Shown here: in pieces, positions 2,197-49,833 of the stretch
Layout of the letters: every line of letters begins with the position of its first letter
How positions within the stretch are numbered: the stretch's first letter is position 1
Source of the DNA: an uncultured Acidimicrobiales bacterium
Lineage (GTDB): Bacteria; Actinomycetota; Acidimicrobiia; Acidimicrobiales; SZUA-35
Direction: 5' to 3'
Assembly: GCA_937922785.1 (NCBI GenBank)
Contig: CALAJQ010000017.1
Coordinates: 62,001 to 126,000, forward strand
Length of the DNA: 64,000 nucleotides
Program-made: the position numbers and the translations under genes
The notes under the pieces: generated by a model
The model's input: only the letters and a program-made list of their open reading frames with translations
Told to the model about the DNA's origin: nothing
Databases searched by the model: none

Positions 2197-3516
2197 ATGA
2201 AGAAGTTTGGTTCTGGATCGATCGCGATCCTGATGCTGTGCGCGCTGATGGCAAGCATCTCGCCGGCTGCCGGAGCGCAGGCTGAAGCGGTTAGTAGCGG
2301 CTCACTGTCGTGCTCAGTGCAACTCTCTAACTCGATTCCGACGGTGTCGGTTGAAACGACAGCAACCAGCGGTCGAGTAGTCATTGAACGCAAAGCCTTT
2401 TCACGGCACTGGTGGCGCGGAGCAATACAACTTGATCAGGCCGATCGAGTTCTAGTGGACGGCCCGTTGCCGAAGAACGCGTCGCTGGTCGAATACAGGG
2501 CAGTTTTGAAGGCCAACAACGGTGAAGTTTTAGGGCAAGCCAATTGCGAGCTAGTCAACTCAGGGCTTGCGTTCTGCCGTGCTATTGCCACAGTAGATGG
2601 CTATGCAACGCTGGCGTTGTTCACAGGTCCAAGGAGGCCAAACGTCGACACCGTCTACCGGCGCAGTGTAACGCCTGATGGGCCAAACTATTGGCGTGGA
2701 GTAGTACCCGGTCGCAATGCTCGATTTACTGATGGGCCATCGCCAACTGGAGTGGTCACCTACCAAGCGTTCGATCGTTCCGACGGCGTGATCTTCCAAG
2801 CAGCAACCTGCACAGGTGGCACAAGGGATCTTCAGTGCGTCGACATCGATCCTGAGATACTAGTCAATCCCCGAGAGAGCGGGCAGCCATTTCAGACCGA
2901 CTCCGGCTTCACCGTCACCCAGGTCTCCGGCGCTGACGGACCACCGGTAATTGCTATCGAATCACCTAACGGAGGCCCAGTCTTCACATGTGGACCCGAT
3001 GGTGGCGCCACTCTGATCAGCGTCAGCGGCGACCGGGTCATCTTTGTCTCCGGCCTCACGATCAAGTCGATGTTCACGGTCGTGCTTGACGGCGATCCTA
3101 AGCCAGCCTCTATTAGTCCACCAATATCGCGGTCTGTCGTTACGCCTGGAATCAACGTGGCTGCGGCGGATGGCAAGGTCTATGCCATGACTCGCAACGA
3201 ACTGATCGTTTTTGACCAGTCAAGTGGAGAACCAGTCTCAGCTGCAGACTTTGGCGATGCAGAGGCCAACCAGATCCCGATGGTTGTTGGCCCCGACGGC
3301 GTCGCCTATTTCACTGTCTTTGCCAACGGCGTCGGTCGCATACTTGTGAAATTTGACCCGAGGACTCAGGATCTTCAGACGATTGGCCAATTTAGTGAGG
3401 GCTGGGGCAACCAGGGCCGACTTGAGGTTCTGGCTGATGGCACCGTTACCTATACCCATTGTGGGAAAGATTCTTGTTCTTCCGAGATTTTTGAACCGGT
3501 GAACCCGACTGGTTAA
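2197..3516 (+). CDS. Secreted protein with duplicated N-terminal module and propeller-like C-terminus
   Basis: A 439-residue exported protein of unknown function. It starts with a signal peptide (MKKFGSGSIAILMLCALMAS, then a likely AxA cleavage site near residue 27). ATG 2197 is preferred over 2176 and 2191 because GGAGG at 2184-2188 lies 8 nt before it. Two similar segments follow: RHWWRGAIQLDQADRVLVDG...NCE and NYWRGVVPGRNARFTDG...TC, each about 90 residues and ending in a cysteine-bearing strand, which suggests an internal duplication of an Ig- or FN3-like module. The last 200 residues resemble beta-propeller blades (AAADGKVYAMTRNELIVFD, VGPDGVAYFTVF). No enzyme motif or anchor is visible, so it is probably a released or cell-wall-associated protein. 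Confidence 0.7.
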   Translation: MKKFGSGSIAILMLCALMASISPAAGAQAEAVSSGSLSCSVQLSNSIPTVSVETTATSGRVVIERKAFSRHWWRGAIQLDQADRVLVDGPLPKNASLVEYRAVLKANNGEVLGQANCELVNSGLAFCRAIATVDGYATLALFTGPRRPNVDTVYRRSVTPDGPNYWRGVVPGRNARFTDGPSPTGVVTYQAFDRSDGVIFQAATCTGGTRDLQCVDIDPEILVNPRESGQPFQTDSGFTVTQVSGADGPPVIAIESPNGGPVFTCGPDGGATLISVSGDRVIFVSGLTIKSMFTVVLDGDPKPASISPPISRSVVTPGINVAAADGKVYAMTRNELIVFDQSSGEPVSAADFGDAEANQIPMVVGPDGVAYFTVFANGVGRILVKFDPRTQDLQTIGQFSEGWGNQGRLEVLADGTVTYTHCGKDSCSSEIFEPVNPTG

Positions 3517-3532
3517 GAATTTTGGGACGCCG

Positions 3533-4255
3533 CTAGGGCGCGACTAAGTCGACAATCTCTGACAGCGAGCTAACTACGTAGGTTGGTGAGATTTGGACAG
3601 ACGACACGAGCTGGTTTGGGTTGTACCAACACGTGTGCAGGCCGAAACTGTTGCCGCCAGTAATGTCGGCGGAAAGACTGTCGCCGACCATCAGCACCGA
3701 CTCCAGCGGCGGATTTCCGATGCTGTCTAGTGTCGCTCGGAAGATCTCAGGATCGGGCTTGGCCCAGCCGATCTCGCTTGAGACCGTGATTGATTCGAAG
3801 AAGTGAGCGATTTCCAGACGTTCAATCCGGCCCCTTTGAATGTGGCTGATACCGTTCGTGATCAACGCCATGGTCAGGGTGGGCTTTAGTAATTCCAGTG
3901 TTTCGAATGTGCCTGGGTAGAGCTCGCCATGAGCCTGCATGCCGCCTGCGAACCCTTCGGCCATGGCTGCTGGATCTCCATCGAGATGAAGTAACTCTGT
4001 GAGCTCTTCAAACCGGCGAGTGTGAACAGCGTCTGGCGTGATTGTTCCCGCCTCCACTTGTTTCCAGAGCCGTGAGTTGATCGTTTGGAAGGTGGGATAG
4101 TGGCCCGTTGGATCCACACCGACCCTAGCCATCGCGTCGGTAAACGCAAGCTTGAGCGACGCTTCTGTGTCGAACAGCGTGTGATCGAGATCGAACAAGA
4201 TGTGGGTGTAGTTCTGGCTTCGGGCAGCTCGGTGAATGGTATGACCTTCAGGCAT
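3533..4255 (-). CDS. HAD-superfamily phosphatase, YjjG-like, with glycosylase-like leader
   Basis: Predicted cytoplasmic phosphatase, nearest to the YjjG type that dephosphorylates nucleoside monophosphates. Motif I is FDLDHTLFD, motif II TNG, motif III the lysine of WAKPDPEIF, and motif IV VGDSLSADI. The start is odd. HAD proteins of this type begin just before the ILFDLDHTL strand, but here the chain begins MPEGHTIHRAARSQ, which is the N-terminal signature of Nei/Fpg DNA glycosylases (catalytic Pro and Glu). No other start codon lies between that segment and the HAD domain, so it is probably translated as a leader. A GTG at 4297 would add 14 more residues drawn from repeat-like DNA. HAD identity is firm; the origin of the leader is an inference. 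Confidence 0.85.
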   Translation of the reverse strand: MPEGHTIHRAARSQNYTHILFDLDHTLFDTEASLKLAFTDAMARVGVDPTGHYPTFQTINSRLWKQVEAGTITPDAVHTRRFEELTELLHLDGDPAAMAEGFAGGMQAHGELYPGTFETLELLKPTLTMALITNGISHIQRGRIERLEIAHFFESITVSSEIGWAKPDPEIFRATLDSIGNPPLESVLMVGDSLSADITGGNSFGLHTCWYNPNQLVSSVQISPTYVVSSLSEIVDLVAP

Positions 4256-4324
4256 CGAGACATTCTGGCCTGCTAACTCCGAACTGACCGAACCCACCGC
4301 GAGAATCCACCGTTGTTGACCCGG

Positions 4325-5287
4325 TCAGAAACGGAGGACTTGTTCGGCTAGAGCGTTGGCGGCGGCTAAGGGTGAGATTTGTCCGGCTGCGGCCTGGGTG
4401 AGAACCCTCGTGTCGGAATCGAGAACACCTTCTAGGTTGGCCTCAAACTGCTGACGCAGCCGGTTTGCCACCTCAAACCGGGCTCGACCCGCTCGCCGCT
4501 CGACGCCCTTGCCTGAACTCTGCAAGTACTGCTTGTGGGTATCGATTGCATCGGCGATCTCGCCGACGGTGTCGCCAACGAGTGAGTTGCACATGATGAT
4601 TGGCGGCCGATACTCGGTGTCTTCCTGGCCTGTCATGTGGCTTAGATCCAGCATCAGGTCAAGATCTCGCCGAGTGTCGCTAGCGCCAGGCCGATCCGCC
4701 TTGTTCACAACAAATATGTCGGCCACTTCCAACAGGCCAGCTTTGTTCGCCTGGACGGCATCGCCCATGCCGGGGCTCACTACTACGACGGTTGTGTCAG
4801 CCGCGGCGGTGATGTCCACCTCAACCTGACCGACACCAACGGTTTCAATAATGACCGGGTCATACGCCATCGCGTCAAAGACGCGAACACAGCCCGGTAC
4901 CGACATGGCAAGGCCCCCAGCGTGACCGCGGGTGGCAACTGAGCGAATAAATGCGACATCGTCGACATCCATCATCCGCACCCGGTCACCCAAGATCGCG
5001 CCTCCTGATAAAGGCGACGAGGGGTCGATTGCCAGAACGGCCGGAGGAGTCTGGGAGTCCTTCGTCAAGTGGGCTACGAGCTGGCCGACCATGGTTGACT
5101 TCCCTGCGCCGGGCGAGCCAGTGATGCCAACGATGTGGGCTGCTTTTGACAGCCCAAACGTTGCCTCGGTAACCGCTTCTGATGTTGCGGAGTTCTCGGC
5201 CAAGGTGAGCAGGCGGCCCAGGGCACCTCGGTGTCCGGTGCTCGCCCGCTCAAGAAGTTGTTCAACGGACAGTTTGCGGAGGCTCAC
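4325..5287 (-). CDS. meaB: MeaB/ArgK-family G-protein chaperone of a B12 mutase
   Basis: GTPase that gates cobalamin loading and protects or rescues adenosylcobalamin-dependent acyl-CoA mutases. It has 320 residues. The P-loop GITGSPGAGKST is at residues 54-65; also visible are the Mg-binding AIDPSSPLSGGAILGDRVRM segment, the ETVGVGQ switch and the NKAD base-recognition motif. It overlaps the small mutase subunit gene by 4 bp (ATGA), so the two are translationally coupled, and it is the last gene of the icmA-icmB-meaB order. Family members were once annotated as LAO/AO transport ATPases; the context makes the chaperone role far more likely. Confidence 0.94.
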   Translation of the reverse strand: MSLRKLSVEQLLERASTGHRGALGRLLTLAENSATSEAVTEATFGLSKAAHIVGITGSPGAGKSTMVGQLVAHLTKDSQTPPAVLAIDPSSPLSGGAILGDRVRMMDVDDVAFIRSVATRGHAGGLAMSVPGCVRVFDAMAYDPVIIETVGVGQVEVDITAAADTTVVVVSPGMGDAVQANKAGLLEVADIFVVNKADRPGASDTRRDLDLMLDLSHMTGQEDTEYRPPIIMCNSLVGDTVGEIADAIDTHKQYLQSSGKGVERRAGRARFEVANRLRQQFEANLEGVLDSDTRVLTQAAAGQISPLAAANALAEQVLRF

Positions 5288-5715
5288 CCGGCTTCTGGTC
5301 CACTTTCCGATGATCTGGCAACTGCAGCCACCGCAGTTCGCACGATGTCCACGACTTCTTCAGCCGATGCACCTGGTCCAATCACGCCGCTGACCCCAGC
5401 CGACAGCAGTTCGTCAACATCTTGGGTCGGGATAATCCCGCCGATAACCAGTGGCACATCCATCTCGGCATCTTTCAAAGCGTGAAGCATCGACGGAGCC
5501 AAGGTTAGGTGTCCGGCATTGTGCATCGAAAGGCCGATTGCGTCGGCGTCCTCCTGTTCGGCCGCGGCGATAATGCTGTCGGTTGTTTGACGGAGGCCAA
5601 GGTAAATGACTTCCATGCCGGCGTCTCGCAAGATGCGAGCGACTACTTTGATTCCTCGGTCATGGCCGTCAAGGCCCAGCTTGGCCAGGACTACTCGAAT
5701 GCGAGACTCTGACAT
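5284..5715 (-). CDS. icmB: Cobalamin-binding small subunit of acyl-CoA mutase
   Basis: B12-binding subunit of 143 residues that carries adenosylcobalamin for the large subunit encoded just upstream. The base-off ligand motif DxHxxG is DGHDRG at residues 16-21 with His18 as lower axial ligand, followed by IGLSMHNAGHLTL and VIGGIIPTQD, all typical of the fold. A separate subunit of about 140 residues is the arrangement of isobutyryl-CoA mutase IcmB and of split methylmalonyl-CoA mutases. The stop of icmA and the ATG of this gene are directly adjacent. The symbol is chosen for consistency with the pocket residues of the large subunit; mcmA2 is the alternative. Confidence 0.85.
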   Translation of the reverse strand: MSESRIRVVLAKLGLDGHDRGIKVVARILRDAGMEVIYLGLRQTTDSIIAAAEQEDADAIGLSMHNAGHLTLAPSMLHALKDAEMDVPLVIGGIIPTQDVDELLSAGVSGVIGPGASAEEVVDIVRTAVAAVARSSESGPEAG

Positions 5716-28419: not shown

Positions 28420-29013
28420 CTACTTCATCCCCGCAGCTTTGATATTGCGTTGAGCGACCTCAACCAACTTGTTTCGTTTCACCTTGTAAGACACAACTTT
28501 GTCTGCCGAGTGCTGTCCGGAACGGGCTCGGGCTGTAACCACGTCGAGGGTCATTCCGTTGAGAATTGGTACCAACGCAATGGCCCGAAATCCTTCATTA
28601 GACCCAGGAATCGATCGCTTGTCTTCTCTCATCACTTCTGGTGAGTCCCAAACCCAGTGGTCGTTGACGCTTATGAAGCGACAGCGGTGGTTGGTCTTTG
28701 ACTTGTTGATGATCGAACCCGGGCAAACGATTACCGAACCCTGGATCCATGGGGGATGTCCCATTCCGTCTGGCCCGAACCCCTGTTCAAATGCTTCGTC
28801 GATGATCGCGTCTGGGTCGCCGTCGGCAACCGCACGGTTGCGCTGGATCTGATGAACTACCTCTCCTAGGTTGGAGAGATCATCTGCGTCGAGTCGGTCA
28901 AGTACTCGAACCGCGTCGGCGGGATTGCCGGCAAGAATCTTCGCTGCAGCGTTGATACGACGTGTTGAGACTTCTTCTTCCACCCATGGAACGTTATCGA
29001 GCGGTCGCCCCAT
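28420..29013 (-). CDS. Unrecognised 197-residue protein
   Basis: I do not recognise a family. The protein is soluble, with no signal peptide or membrane helix. The N-terminal half is helical and acidic (AAAKILAGNPADAVRVLDRL). The middle holds a probably structured core rich in Gly/Pro/Trp (GFGPDGMGHPPWIQGSVIVC) and a strand-rich stretch with NHRCRFISVNDHWVWD. The end is basic (VKRNKLVEVAQRNIKAAG). It abuts xylB with no gap and lies 22 bp after the start of the large HD-GYP gene's end, all on one strand. Coding is supported by its tight spacing and lack of a competing frame. Confidence 0.6.
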   Translation of the reverse strand: MGRPLDNVPWVEEEVSTRRINAAAKILAGNPADAVRVLDRLDADDLSNLGEVVHQIQRNRAVADGDPDAIIDEAFEQGFGPDGMGHPPWIQGSVIVCPGSIINKSKTNHRCRFISVNDHWVWDSPEVMREDKRSIPGSNEGFRAIALVPILNGMTLDVVTARARSGQHSADKVVSYKVKRNKLVEVAQRNIKAAGMK

Positions 29014-29035: not shown

Positions 29036-32000
29036 TCAGTTGTAGAAGTAGAAGCTCATCAACATGCCCGCGTTGTGGTCCGCCGTGAGGCTCTCAATCG
29101 ATCGTGAAACGAACGTGTCGGCACTCGGACAAACGTAGGTACCCACTGAGGCTGCGCCGGAAGTGGTGAATTCCCAGCAGGCAGCAGTGTTTGCGTTTGT
29201 ACGGGTTGCCAGCGACATGCTGGTGTAGTCAGAGTCGGAGTACTCGCCCGAGTAATGAGCCATTGCCCCGTAGTCGTCAATGTTCCAAATGCCGAGTTCG
29301 ACTTCGGGTGCCTCATCAGAGTGGTCATGGCCCAAGTGGGTGAGGGTTGACCAGCCCATGTAGTCAATGATCAGCCCGTCGCCGTCGAGAAGCCAAACGT
29401 GGTCTCTGTCTTTGTCGAGTTTGGTGTAGTCGTCAGGTTGTCCTTGGCCACCTAGCCATCGGGTGTGGAAGACGGTGCCATTGCCCGCAACTGCAGTGGT
29501 GTTCCAAACGGTGACGCCCGGAGCTGGTGTTGCTCCTGGTCCAATGTCTATGACGAGGTCGCCATTTCCAGGAGTGGTTCCTGGCTTGTGGGATTGAATC
29601 CTCCAGGTGGACATATCGACTGTGTTGCTACTGATATTTGTCACTTCAATGAGTTCGGCTTCAACACAAATCTCGGTGCCGGTTTCGTCATGGCACCAGC
29701 TCATGTTTTCGGCCAGGACTTCGGTGATGATCACGTCACCCTCTAGCGGTGACAGCCCCGTCGCGCTGATCTTGAAGAACACTGAGCTTGTGCTCGTCTT
29801 GCCCAAGTCGTCGGTGACGGTGATGTCGCTCAAAACATCAGTGCCCAGTAGAGCAGGGTCAGTGACAGTTCCCGAGATCGAGATTTCGTCTGGGCCTTGG
29901 ATTATTGAGAGTCCGGCCGGGAGATCATGGACGTAGCTCAGGTTGGTCGAGTTCGGGTTGTCCACAGCAAAAGGTCCCGCTGCAAATGGCACTCCGATGA
30001 AGACTTGCTGTTCGCCTATGTCCTCGATGCTCGGGGACCCAACAAAGACTACGTTTATTTCCCAGCTCGAGAGTTGAGGGTCGCTGGTGCATCCGGTGGG
30101 GTCGCATAGATCGAAAGTGACAGAAGTTTGACCTGAGAAGCCGAGAGTTGGCGTGAACTCGATTGTGTTGTCAGGTAGTCGTACAGCAACGCCATCGGGT
30201 GAGGCGAAGTTCTGGGCAACTGGGGTGTCGCCATCGGCGTCGTAGAACGTGTAGTCCTCGTCCAGGGTTACGGGCGTGTCAGCCGGAGTTGATTTCGGCG
30301 TGGGAGCGCCAGTTGTAACTGGGGTATCGGGCTGGGGTGTGATGTTGAAGTTGATTGTTCCAACCGAGCAGTTCGGGTCTGGAGCGGTGTTGTCACAAAC
30401 TTCATAGGTCGTCGCTTGTGGTCCGTTTGCATCTGGTTCAGGGACAAAGGTGAGCGAGGTAAGTGGTCCTGACGCAGGTGTCACCGAGATGTGGCCACGG
30501 TCATAGTTGACGTCTGTGAATGTGAAGGTGAGATCAGCTGGCGCCGTGTCGCTGTCATTTGCCACGCTCTCGAGGGCCGCCCGCTGAATGGTCACGCTTG
30601 AGTCTTCATCCAGAGTCCTGGCAATTTGGGCTGGCTCAGGAGAGTCGAATACTTCGTCAAAGGTCAGCGTGATCGAGCCGGGCACACAGGTGGCGAGATC
30701 GCACACTTCATACTGAATCGACTGATCTGCGGTGGAGTTAGTCGGGGGTGTGTAGACAAAGCCTGAACCGTCGCCGTTGTCCACGAAGTTGCCGTCGGCC
30801 GGATCGGTGTAGGTAACCGTCAAGTCTGCTGTGTCGGTGTCAACATCGGTAACTGCCAGCAGCAACTCAGCGGTGGTGAAGTTCGATGGTGTGTCTTCGA
30901 GGCCGCTGTGAACGTAAGGGCTTGCTGCATTTGTGAGGACTGGAGGGTCATCCACGGCTGAGAATGTCAGTGCAAGAACTACCTCGTCGGAGCAGAGTAA
31001 ACTCGGATCACAAACGATGTACGGGATTGTGACGATGCCATTGAAATCAGCTGGCGGGATGTAGACCACACCTGATGCGTTTGCTTCAAACTGTCCAGGT
31101 GGGTTAGGCGTACCCCAGGCGATAGAAAGCGCGTCACCGTCGGGGTCCGAATCGTTTGAAAGAATCGTCGCCTCGTCACCGGTGAATGTTTGGTCTTCGA
31201 GAACTGCGGGGAGAGACTCGCCAAAAGCTCGAGGGGCGTCCGGTACAGGAGTCATGACGATGGTGGCCATACTCGCAGCACAACTAATCGGATCACAGAG
31301 TTGGTATGTGAGATCCACTTCGCCATTGAAGTCAGCAGGTGGGGTGTAGACAGGTGGGGTTACCGATTGATCGATCGAGGGATTTGGCACCCAGTTGACG
31401 CGGATCGGATCTCCATCAACCTCGATGTCATTAGCCAGAACAAGGTGTTCTTCAAGTTCCAAGCCAACGTCTTCTGCCGTCTCGATGCGGTCATCGACAG
31501 CAATCGGCTGATCGTTCACTGGTGTGACGCTGACGGTTACAAACGCCGTCTCTCCACACCCGTCGGCGTCGCAAGCACGGTAGGGAACAACTCCCTGAGC
31601 CGTGGAGTTCTCGAGCGGGACGTAGGTGAGGTCATTGTTGTTGAGAACAGAGTTGGCGCCAGATGGAACTCCCCATCGGACAGTCATTGAGTCGCCCTCA
31701 ACATCGCTGTCGTTGGCCAGAACCAGAGCTGGAGTCAGCGTTACTGACCCGTCTTCGAGAACTGTTGCCAAGTCTTCAACCGATGTCGGGAGGTCGTTAG
31801 CTGGTGTGACGTTGACGGTGACTTTGCCGTCACCACACCTGGTCTCGCGTTGTACCGAACACGCAGAGAAGTTGAACGATTGAACGCCGAACTCATTGGG
31901 ATTAGGTGCAAACGTGACGCTTTGCTGCGCGACGCCGTTGGTTGGAGTAACTGTGCTTCCAAAGCTGACAGCAGGGCTAGTGACCCTTCCCTGTGCCGGA

Positions 32001-33559
32001 CCCTGGGTGAGAATGAACTTAACTTGCTCTTCAGTGGACGCTGCCAAGATTAACGACACCGATTGATCCTCAGCTGTCACCACAAAGCTAGTTTCGGCCA
32101 CTGGCGAAAGTGGTTCGTTCGTTTGGGGCTGGGTTACAGGTGCGGCGGTAGTTGGTACGGTCGTTACTGGCGGCTGTGTAGTTGTCGGTTGTGTCGTTGT
32201 CGGTTGAGTAACTGCGGGACCGGTGGTGGGAGTAGTCGGCCCTGGATTAGGGCTTGTTGTGGGCGGTGTCGATATAGCTGGCGCAGTGGAGGTAGTTGGC
32301 ACAGTTGAGGGCACTTCGTCAGCCGGTAACGTGATCGCCGTCGGCGGAGCGGCGAAAGCAATCTCGGCAGGGGTGGCAGGTCCAACGCCGGCAGCGACTG
32401 TTGCAGCAACGGCGGTGGCAACCGTGAAGACGGGCTGGGCCAGGGTTCCAACTGGTAGCTGAGTTGCAGCCTGGACGTTGGCTAGCCAGCTAAGCGGTCC
32501 GGCAGCAAAACGAAGTCTGCCGAGGCCGATGTTTAAGAAAGCTCGTGCCACGTGCGGATCGAACTGACCTCCTGCGCAAGCTGCGATTTCGGCCCGAGCT
32601 TCTGCCGGAGGTCTTGGCTCCTTGTAGCTTCTCGTGGAAGTCATTACGTCATACGCGTCGGCGACGGCAACGATTCTTGCGCCCAGAGGAATGTCGCCGC
32701 CCCCCAAACTGTCCGGGTAGCCCTTGCCGTCCCAACGCTCGTGGTGGTTTCTAACTGACTGGCCCCATTCACCCAAGAAGTCCTTCAAGGGTTCGATCAG
32801 CTCGTCACCCCTCCAAGTATGGGACTTGAGAGTGACCCACTCGGATTCGGTCGGTCGTCCTGGCTTGTTAAGAATTTCAGACGGAACGTAGATCTTTCCG
32901 ACGTCGTGCAGCAGGGCAGCCCAGCGCAACTTGCCGGCGTCCTCTTCGGAGAGTTTCATCTCCTCGGCAATCATGTCGGTGTAGGCCCGAACTCGTTCCG
33001 AATGACCCCGAGTCATCCGGTCGTGCATTGACAGGCCAGCGACGAGCTCCAACATCGTCTCGGCGTATTCACTTTCATCAGTAGGAAATCCGGAGACTCG
33101 AACTTCCTCCATTCGACGCTCAACTTTTTTGGTGCTGTTGTTGCGCATGGCAACACTGAACCGAGACGGCGCTTCGTCTGGAAAAACAAGTGAAAGTTTG
33201 AACAGGGCGGCCAAAGGCAAAAGACCGCGAGAAACTCGTTCGGTTGAGAGCAACACAACAAGCCCCAGCGCAAACAGACATATCCACCACGAATACGTGG
33301 GTATCCCAACTTCTGCAGCCGGATACACCCGTGCAAGAGACCAAGTCACAAAGAAGGACAACACTGACGGCAACAGCATGATCGTCCAACGAATTGCAGT
33401 TGAAACTGCTGTGTTGGCCTTCCACGAGTTAGCGCCCGCTCCGTGGCGAGTTGGTCCGTCCGCGTGCACAGGCGTATCAACGGGCGCAGCCGCTTCTACG
33501 GCAGCTTCGCTGACAGGTCCGTCAGAAGCCTTCCGCCTTGGAAGAGGGGTGTTGTGCAC
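29036..33559 (-). CDS. Membrane HD-GYP protein with extracellular cadherin-like and lamin-tail domains
   Basis: A 1507-residue protein joining an intracellular phosphodiesterase to a large surface region. TM1 is at about 58-78 and TM2 at 91-107. A complete HD-GYP domain covers about 165-345: the HD pair H218-D219 in LLHDVGK, HHERWDGKGYP (272-282) and RIVAVADAYDVMTS, as in cyclic-di-GMP phosphodiesterases. TM3 at about 371-392 is followed by a Pro/Thr-rich stalk (408-486). Then come about seven cadherin-like repeats (recurring VLEDGSVTLTPALVLANDSD and ANDSDVEGD motifs, paired cysteines), a putative Ig domain ending near 1270 (LPAGLSIIQGPDEISISGTV) and a lamin-tail domain at about 1274-1400 (GDVIITEVLAEN...IEVTN). 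Three helices keep HD-GYP inside and the repeats outside. No sorting signal is seen. The GTG start is provisional. Confidence 0.88.
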   Translation of the reverse strand: MHNTPLPRRKASDGPVSEAAVEAAAPVDTPVHADGPTRHGAGANSWKANTAVSTAIRWTIMLLPSVLSFFVTWSLARVYPAAEVGIPTYSWWICLFALGLVVLLSTERVSRGLLPLAALFKLSLVFPDEAPSRFSVAMRNNSTKKVERRMEEVRVSGFPTDESEYAETMLELVAGLSMHDRMTRGHSERVRAYTDMIAEEMKLSEEDAGKLRWAALLHDVGKIYVPSEILNKPGRPTESEWVTLKSHTWRGDELIEPLKDFLGEWGQSVRNHHERWDGKGYPDSLGGGDIPLGARIVAVADAYDVMTSTRSYKEPRPPAEARAEIAACAGGQFDPHVARAFLNIGLGRLRFAAGPLSWLANVQAATQLPVGTLAQPVFTVATAVAATVAAGVGPATPAEIAFAAPPTAITLPADEVPSTVPTTSTAPAISTPPTTSPNPGPTTPTTGPAVTQPTTTQPTTTQPPVTTVPTTAAPVTQPQTNEPLSPVAETSFVVTAEDQSVSLILAASTEEQVKFILTQGPAQGRVTSPAVSFGSTVTPTNGVAQQSVTFAPNPNEFGVQSFNFSACSVQRETRCGDGKVTVNVTPANDLPTSVEDLATVLEDGSVTLTPALVLANDSDVEGDSMTVRWGVPSGANSVLNNNDLTYVPLENSTAQGVVPYRACDADGCGETAFVTVSVTPVNDQPIAVDDRIETAEDVGLELEEHLVLANDIEVDGDPIRVNWVPNPSIDQSVTPPVYTPPADFNGEVDLTYQLCDPISCAASMATIVMTPVPDAPRAFGESLPAVLEDQTFTGDEATILSNDSDPDGDALSIAWGTPNPPGQFEANASGVVYIPPADFNGIVTIPYIVCDPSLLCSDEVVLALTFSAVDDPPVLTNAASPYVHSGLEDTPSNFTTAELLLAVTDVDTDTADLTVTYTDPADGNFVDNGDGSGFVYTPPTNSTADQSIQYEVCDLATCVPGSITLTFDEVFDSPEPAQIARTLDEDSSVTIQRAALESVANDSDTAPADLTFTFTDVNYDRGHISVTPASGPLTSLTFVPEPDANGPQATTYEVCDNTAPDPNCSVGTINFNITPQPDTPVTTGAPTPKSTPADTPVTLDEDYTFYDADGDTPVAQNFASPDGVAVRLPDNTIEFTPTLGFSGQTSVTFDLCDPTGCTSDPQLSSWEINVVFVGSPSIEDIGEQQVFIGVPFAAGPFAVDNPNSTNLSYVHDLPAGLSIIQGPDEISISGTVTDPALLGTDVLSDITVTDDLGKTSTSSVFFKISATGLSPLEGDVIITEVLAENMSWCHDETGTEICVEAELIEVTNISSNTVDMSTWRIQSHKPGTTPGNGDLVIDIGPGATPAPGVTVWNTTAVAGNGTVFHTRWLGGQGQPDDYTKLDKDRDHVWLLDGDGLIIDYMGWSTLTHLGHDHSDEAPEVELGIWNIDDYGAMAHYSGEYSDSDYTSMSLATRTNANTAACWEFTTSGAASVGTYVCPSADTFVSRSIESLTADHNAGMLMSFYFYN

Positions 33560-48369: not shown

Positions 48370-49833
48370 TCAGCGCGAAGTGCTTAGCGCTGCGTCAGCC
48401 TCGGCTGGAAGGCAGTCGCACCCGATCGGCAGCTCGTTCGCCAGCAGTCGCCCCTTTGCCGCTTCAGGCTGCGTTTGCACAACACGTATCAGAGCCTCGA
48501 CCACCTGTTCGTCCCATTGAGACCCAGAGTGTTCGCGAAGAATGGCTATCGCCTTGGAGCGACCCATCCCTTGGCGATATTGGCGCGTATTGACCATTGC
48601 ATCAAACGAGTCGCAGACCGACACAATTCGGGCCTCGAGGCAGACTTGATCGCCACGAAGTTGATCTGGGTACCCGGTGCCATCGACGCGTTCGTGGTGA
48701 GAGCGGATGGCAGCGGCAATGTCGGAAATGGTCAGGGTCTTAGCAACCATGTCTGCACCCGCAGATGCGTGACCTTTTATCACCTCGTACTCTTGAGCTG
48801 TCAGGCGATCCGGTTTGGTCAGAATGGCATCCGGAATTTCGAGTTTGCCGATGTCGTGCAAGAGCCCAGCAAGTCCAGCTCGCCTCATCGACTCTGAATT
48901 CATTCCCAATTCTTCAGCGACCGCAATAGCCAATTCCGAAGTTCGTACAACGTGGTCCCTGGTTATTGGGTCCTTGGCCTGAAGCTGACCGATGAACTCA
49001 TGCACTATCGGCTCGAGCCCGACTTCCAGCGCGGCCACCGGCTCAACCGCAATGATCGGAGCCAAGACCCTGCGGGTTGACTCAGACCTTCTATAAACCA
49101 CAATTGCTGCGGCCAATCCGCTTAGAACTCCTGCGATGTCAAACAAGTGGGCTGCCCAGAAACCGATCGAGAAAGGAGCAGAGCCAAGCCACATCGCCGC
49201 CGAGGCTCCCACCAATCCGTATCCCATTGAGACCGCCAGCGGCGCAGAGGACTTTGCTATCTGTGCCAGCCGATAGTGGCGATAAGACAAACCAATGCAG
49301 CCTGAAATGGACACGGCCGCTACTAGCACGCCGGCATATGAACCCGGAGCGAAGCTTGGAATCATCTCGGGCTCAGTCAATAAGATTGCGGCGGTCGCAC
49401 CGATAAATGCCAGACTTCCACCTACCCAAATCTTCCACCTTCGGAAAACGGTGGTTCTGCGCCCGCCGAACATCGGGCTTGCTACAACCAGGCCCACCGG
49501 AATTGCCCACAGCGCCGCTGCCATGGTTGCGGTGTTCTCGTCGTAGAGAATGCCTGGAGTGGTTATGCCATGAACCAGCGGAAGTACCGAGACTGACATA
49601 TAGAACAGTCCTAAGAAACCCAGTTCGGCGGTGTTGGTTGCGAAGGCTCGACGCAAGAGTGCCATTGCCAGGATCACGCAAGCAGTAGCTGCAAATACAA
49701 CAAGCCAAAACAGCAATGCTGGGCTCTCAAGTACACCCGCGGATTCATAGCGCAAGGCAAGCGTCGCCTGCGCCCCCAGCGGAACGCTCCAACTCAAGAT
49801 CCAAAGAGCGCCAAGCCGGAGACGGAAACCCAC
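48370..49833 (-). CDS. Membrane HD-GYP phosphodiesterase-like protein
   Basis: The protein has 487 residues. The N-terminal half is a membrane region of about eight helices (LRLGALWILSWSVPLG onward), likely a sensory module of a MHYT/MASE-like type, although I cannot name it. The C-terminal HD-GYP domain is complete: DPITRDHVVRTSELA, GLLHDIGKLEIPDAIL with the HD pair, HHERVDGTGYPDQL, and RIVSVCDSFDAMVNTRQY. Probably degrades cyclic di-GMP. Start is GTG 49833. It is the second HD-GYP gene in the window, unrelated in its N-terminus to the cadherin one, and lies next to soxR. Confidence 0.85.
   Translation of the reverse strand: MGFRLRLGALWILSWSVPLGAQATLALRYESAGVLESPALLFWLVVFAATACVILAMALLRRAFATNTAELGFLGLFYMSVSVLPLVHGITTPGILYDENTATMAAALWAIPVGLVVASPMFGGRRTTVFRRWKIWVGGSLAFIGATAAILLTEPEMIPSFAPGSYAGVLVAAVSISGCIGLSYRHYRLAQIAKSSAPLAVSMGYGLVGASAAMWLGSAPFSIGFWAAHLFDIAGVLSGLAAAIVVYRRSESTRRVLAPIIAVEPVAALEVGLEPIVHEFIGQLQAKDPITRDHVVRTSELAIAVAEELGMNSESMRRAGLAGLLHDIGKLEIPDAILTKPDRLTAQEYEVIKGHASAGADMVAKTLTISDIAAAIRSHHERVDGTGYPDQLRGDQVCLEARIVSVCDSFDAMVNTRQYRQGMGRSKAIAILREHSGSQWDEQVVEALIRVVQTQPEAAKGRLLANELPIGCDCLPAEADAALSTSR

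Follow-up and report, generated by a model that had tools for sequence, protein, structure and literature searches.

A Candidate Family of Transmembrane HD-GYP Proteins with Interchangeable Adhesive Ectodomains in Acidimicrobiia

How contact with a surface is turned into a change in c-di-GMP is an open question in bacteria, and the known routes run through pili, flagella, and multi-protein relays. The 64,000-nucleotide stretch of acidimicrobial DNA analyzed here (the window) raises the question of whether such a route could be contained in a single protein. One of its genes, P0001, appears to unite a surface-repeat fiber and an intact HD-GYP enzyme in one chain, which would make the step from contact to c-di-GMP directly testable. 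Proteins of its family may give a cell a means of sensing what it is in contact with.

P0001 occupies positions 29036-33559 of the minus strand as an unbroken open reading frame of 1507 codons with GTG as the first codon. The start is uncertain because a GGGAGG sequence directly abuts this GTG. The gene and the predicted features of its product are as follows.

29036..33559, minus strand: P0001, entire gene; 1507 aa, GTG start (uncertain)
33326..33394, minus strand: TM1, residues about 56-78; hydropathy 1.4-1.66, confident model helix, pLDDT 94-98
33242..33304, minus strand: TM2, residues about 86-106; hydropathy 1.94, helix in the model
33143..33235, minus strand: juxtamembrane conserved segment (residues 109-139) around LLPLAALFKLSLVFPDEAPSRFSVAMR, a family hallmark
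32549..33034, minus strand: HD-GYP phosphodiesterase domain, residues 176-337; Pfam HD_5, 5e-33
32375..32443, minus strand: TM3, residues about 373-395; hydropathy 1.68, uncharged, low-confidence model helix
32090..32374, minus strand: Pro/Thr/Ser stalk, residues 396-490; P+T+S 59%, no K/R
30050..32089, minus strand: roughly seven repeats of cadherin-like / Big_9 (tandem-95) type, residues 491-1170; CDx(n)C pair in six
29756..30049, minus strand: Ig-like domain, residues 1171-1268; model beta-sandwich, pLDDT 87-97, Foldseek matches to Ig domains
29348..29743, minus strand: lamin-tail domain, residues 1273-1404; Pfam LTD
29039..29347, minus strand: conserved C-terminal block past the LTD, with LATRTNANTAACWEFTTSGAASVGTYVCP, residues 1405-1507; C-W and C invariant, 23 homologous blocks

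Pfam, NCBIfam, and hydropathy bear out the layout given in the preliminary description of this locus: two N-terminal helices and a complete HD-GYP domain are followed by a third hydrophobic stretch, then by a Pro/Thr stalk and about seven repeats of cadherin type, and finally by Ig-like and lamin-tail (LTD) domains. H218-D219 and GYP 280-282 also lie where that description had placed them. Its treatment of the chain as one gene, as opposed to two separated by a frameshift or assembly join near residue 400, holds as well. No frameshift is present near residue 400, and the identical join is found in three paralogues and in tens of other, independent assemblies. A chimera, in which misassembly or a lost stop joined two genes into P0001, is ruled out by this independent recurrence, and nothing was found in its favor; we regard such an artefact as vanishingly improbable. 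Directly downstream of the stop lies a gene of 197 aa (window 28420-29013, minus strand).

P0001 does not stand alone: its genome encodes four paralogues, P0001 included, and the family, a large one, is common in Acidimicrobiia. Five HD_5 matches occur in the source genome, and three genes besides the window gene have its module: C2 (1848 aa, with repeats and an LTD), C6 (1326 aa, with repeats and FG-GAP), and C19 (529 aa, with one repeat). The window contains a second HD-GYP gene (48501-48981, minus strand, 487 aa; L001), which has a different multi-helix N terminus and falls outside the P0001 family. From 84,980 species genomes, a scan retained 78 loci in named assemblies. The relatives from other assemblies, about 75 in number, are nearly all Actinomycetota and mostly Acidimicrobiia; the record of one is labeled Acidobacteria and is perhaps mis-binned. 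Family matches were present in 32 of 41 genomes (the source genome and those of its relatives), with up to 8 per genome. Among 396 genomes of the phylum, matches to the full module had E values below about 1e-110, compared with about 1e-72 and weaker for ordinary HD-GYP proteins, most of which aligned only from about model position 100. The roughly 75 loci share no conserved partner gene, only antisense shadows of the family gene. The C2 paralogue (L006) lies beside cysS and an ABC-transporter set, an arrangement that recurs in L020-L022, its close relatives in other assemblies, and is a mark of orthology; the window copy is without it and may be a later duplicate.

All family members have in common a module made up of two helices, the FPDxAPSR segment, the HD-GYP domain, and a further helix. 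Between TM2 and the HD-GYP domain the consensus is RLLPLxxLxxLSLVFPDxAPSRFxxALR, and among 77 members P115, F126, and R133 are each conserved in 99% and P127 and P131 each in 97%. An unannotated module, this juxtamembrane anchor segment has no entry in Pfam or NCBIfam. One gene of the source genome (L128:3810-4568, on C23; 253 codons) encodes the two helices and FPDHAPSRF followed by pentapeptide repeats, with no HD-GYP domain. Judging by this gene, the anchor with its FPDxAPSR segment is an independent module. At another locus (L130, G001:C116, minus strand), the anchor segment continues into ammonium-transporter-like sequence, probably through an assembly join.

In an AlphaFold2 model of P0001 (mean pLDDT 84), TM1, TM2, and the HD-GYP fold are predicted with high confidence. 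TM3 is the weakest element of the chain, with an AlphaFold confidence of about 50. A TM-like stretch is found at this position in 69 of 72 members, compared with 30 of the 408 tail stretches used as controls, and the stretch is charge-free in 60 of the 72, compared with 7 of the 408 controls. Lysine and arginine together account for 12.2% of residues between the anchor and TM3 and 3.6% beyond TM3, and their share is lower outside in 70 of 71 members. Within P0001 itself, the 95 residues of the stalk contain no K/R at all, and the repeats contain 16 K/R as against 115 D/E. There are also natural variants without the enzyme. In L131 (G019:C27; minus strand, bases 3514-5421 of the reverse strand), three hydrophobic stretches and cadherin-like repeats on the outside are present, but the HD-GYP domain is missing and the cytoplasmic loop is reduced to a short basic stretch. 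Because positive charge, hydropathy, and the HD-GYP-less variants agree, a three-helix, N-in topology with the enzyme inside and the repeats outside is well supported, though short of proof, and the orientation given in the preliminary description is favored over its opposite. The CDx(n)C pairs present in six of the P0001 repeats would be suited to forming disulfides outside the cell.

The HD-GYP domain has the complete set of motif residues, namely H186, H218-D219, K222, H247, H272-H273, D277, G280-Y281-P282, and D301. The HDxGK motif is represented by H218-D219-V-G-K222, and the HHxxxDGxGYP motif by HHERWDGKGYP (272-282). Its sequence matches in the PDB include 5z7c (2e-36), 4r8z (4e-30), and 4mcw (3e-27), and the top Foldseek match is 4r8z (PA4781, 5e-10). 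H186, HD, K222, H247, HH, GYP, and D301 are kept in 77 of 77 members; because the scan was seeded with HHERWD- and ADAYDVM-like sequences, part of the conservation in the HH-WD and ADAxDVM stretches is built into this figure. The full active-site pattern is also present in 35 of 37 loci found by a profile HMM without seeds; the exceptions are L120, which differs only around the first histidine, and L142, which has GYH for GYP. This change in L142 may represent a natural loss or alteration of activity.

The PmGH metal ligands H189, H250, and D305 correspond by alignment to H186, H247, and D301 of P0001. The third-metal ligand of PmGH, E185, is missing, and its position is occupied by M182 (the site is L in 32, M in 22, and R in 9 of 77 members). 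Because of this replacement, the metal site of P0001 is probably binuclear, and its activity may differ. M182 excludes P0001 from the tri-iron subtype only, since E185 does not define the HD-GYP family as a whole. With its active site intact, P0001 likely hydrolyzes a cyclic dinucleotide, and its substrate would most likely be c-di-GMP. That c-di-GMP is in use in the source genome follows from its 28 GGDEF, 21 EAL (one below cut-off), and 1 PilZ matches.

Beyond TM3, the repeats of P0001 score over the cut-off for Pfam Big_9 / Cadherin_5 / Cadherin_4 in 5-7 stretches and for NCBIfam tandem-95 in 7 stretches. The LTD scores 31.2 bits in the whole chain, which is below the cut-off of 34.3, and 34.6 bits when the C-terminal block is taken alone. 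Together with the Ig-like domain it forms a block with an invariant CW and C, of which 23 copies were aligned; the LTD is matched in 21 of these 23 homologous blocks and Pfam He_PIG in 7. No solved structure was found by sequence for the C-terminal block of P0001, and its Foldseek matches mainly reflect the Ig-like part. A role for the lamin-tail tip as a DNA binder is not favored, as residues 1261-1507 contain 35 D/E and 9 K/R.

Elsewhere in the family the tails are of varied content and length. Among 61 tails, Big_9 was found in 39, LTD in 20, Cadherin in 17, the CshA repeat in 4, FG-GAP_3 and pentapeptides in 3 each, and CBM_6 in 1; apart from the pentapeptides, these are adhesion or ligand-binding types. 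Tail length ranges from about 60 to 2236 aa, and in the 58 relatives with a complete 3' end, at least 300 residues lie past TM3 in 34 and at least 1000 in 19, with a maximum of 2236. P0001 and its closest paralogue are 82% identical in the HD-GYP part, 37% in the repeats, and 41% in the LTD end. The presence of the Ig-like and LTD block changes at least 8 times on the module tree, a quick tree with 23 open forks and an unknown root. In members across the phylum outside P0001's own family, the tails are mostly short and low in complexity, rich in P, T, S, G, and D. The cadherin repeats and LTD would thus be additions to a common core consisting of the enzyme and an exported flexible tail; and because most relatives outside the family have a low-complexity tail only, neither cadherin nor LTD domains can be required for what the core does. 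To judge from sequence comparison, then, P0001 belongs to a family in which a conserved membrane-enzyme module is kept and the exported tail is swapped or lengthened, as in receptor families.

We put about even chances on P0001 being a one-chain surface receptor and c-di-GMP phosphodiesterase in which breakdown of the nucleotide is tuned by the outer part. P0001 would be a membrane-anchored phosphodiesterase with its HD-GYP domain in the cytoplasm, on the loop that connects TM2 to TM3. Beyond TM3, a flexible Pro/Thr stalk would pass through the wall and be followed by the cadherin-like repeats, the Ig-like domain, and the lamin-tail tip. Conceivably, the outer part binds or tethers to a surface, matrix, or neighboring cell, and this tethering is sensed as tension or clustering by way of TM3 and the conserved FPDxAPSR segment. 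Tension or clustering would then alter local c-di-GMP hydrolysis by P0001, with a regulation by the outer part and a sign of response that we infer. Rigid conformational signaling is unlikely because the stalk comprises roughly 95 disordered residues; because it is long and flexible, tension on TM3 or clustering of chains would be favored, if signaling exists. More tentatively, at somewhat below even chances, the family as a whole could be an undescribed, lineage-expanded group of receptors that, within a single chain, couple surface adhesion through cadherin-like repeats and a lamin-tail tip to c-di-GMP hydrolysis, with interchangeable ectodomains, the FPDxAPSR segment as transducer, and tension or clustering conveyed through the flexible stalk.

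The simplest reading of a membrane-anchored, intact HD-GYP domain is a local phosphodiesterase, and it is the coupling of the outer part to this enzyme that we infer. The lasting union of enzyme and tail, together with a receptor-like evolution that is slow inside and fast or swapped outside, suggests such coupling. An alternative is a membrane-bound phosphodiesterase that acts locally and is tethered but uncoupled: it would be regulated through the membrane helices or by partners, and its exported tail would serve to span the wall or adhere, with no signal passing from it to the enzyme. The same intact enzyme does occur with tails from short and low-complexity to 2236 aa, the stalk is long and flexible, the anchor and repeats occur without HD-GYP, and the outer parts of the closest paralogues diverge much faster (37% versus 82% identity). 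However, fast ectodomains with slow catalytic domains are common in receptor families, and almost every complete member has enzyme and exported tail joined in a single chain, though the two could be split, so that we find the uncoupled arrangement somewhat doubtful.

Signal flow in the other direction, with the HD-GYP domain binding c-di-GMP and thereby altering how the adhesive outer part is exposed or functions, in the manner of LapD and DvhD, seems quite unlikely. DvhD is a precedent for HD-GYP as a c-di-GMP-binding adhesion switch (PMC13090378), and the HD-GYP structures of DvhD (9rbz) rank with the closest fold matches. Yet DvhD is degenerate (PMC13090378), whereas all 77 members of the P0001 family examined for these residues preserve HD, HH, and the remaining ligands, and Peptidase_C93, the LapG-type protease, has no match in the source genome (95.7% complete), in a search that matched 1 of 14 control genomes, that of Caulobacter. 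We consider it very improbable that the substrate is another nucleotide, such as 3'3'-cGAMP or pGpG, and the output something other than c-di-GMP signaling: the motifs do not reveal the substrate and V-cGAP3 (5z7c), which hydrolyzes 3'3'-cGAMP, is the top match by sequence in the PDB, but the best Foldseek match, PA4781 (4r8z), was deposited as a cyclic di-GMP phosphodiesterase, and GGDEF and EAL domains abound in the genome.

No description of the P0001 family or its architecture was found in the open-access literature searched, including that on HD-GYP with cadherin. The same literature yielded no paper on c-di-GMP in Acidimicrobiia and none that mentions Acidimicrobiia together with HD-GYP. 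In a census of c-di-GMP sensor domains, the terms "cadherin" and "Ig-like" are absent from the main text (PMC8846402). The solved HD-GYP enzymes PA4781 (4r8z), PmGH (4mcw), and V-cGAP3 (5z7c) have the catalytic fold and the metal and motif residues of P0001; they share with it a domain and not an architecture, no exported adhesive tail being noted in them. Among these, P0001 is nearer to the bi-metal PA4781 than to PmGH, as the E185 third-metal ligand is missing. The PgpH / 7TMR-HD c-di-AMP phosphodiesterases, like P0001, combine an HD-type enzyme with an extracellular part; they are 7TM proteins with an ectodomain of another type. The HD domain of PgpH is a weak fold match to P0001 (4s1b, E 7e-3, Foldseek).

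In the LapD-LapG-LapA system, as proposed for P0001, c-di-GMP and large repeat adhesins are linked across the membrane; however, the receptor there is a GGDEF-EAL protein that works inside-out, the adhesin is a separate protein, and the system includes a LapG-type protease, for which the source genome gave no match. DvhD of Desulfovibrio vulgaris is a transmembrane, adhesion-linked HD-GYP receptor for c-di-GMP, in which SQ replaces HD, the double histidine is missing, and c-di-GMP is not hydrolyzed; its periplasmic domain is a dCache domain, and the adhesin and protease are separate (PMC13090378). Both DvhD and P0001 are transmembrane HD-GYP proteins, but P0001 keeps an intact active site and carries the repeats in its own chain. 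The Streptomyces proteins HdgA (6TM-HD-GYP) and HdgB (6TM-degenerate HD-GYP) (PMC6205966) are membrane HD-GYP proteins of Actinomycetota like P0001 and are set apart from it, by description, in having the enzyme after six helices and no exported repeats. Transmembrane HD-GYP proteins are already known; what is apparently undescribed is a family of them whose adhesive ectodomains are interchangeable.
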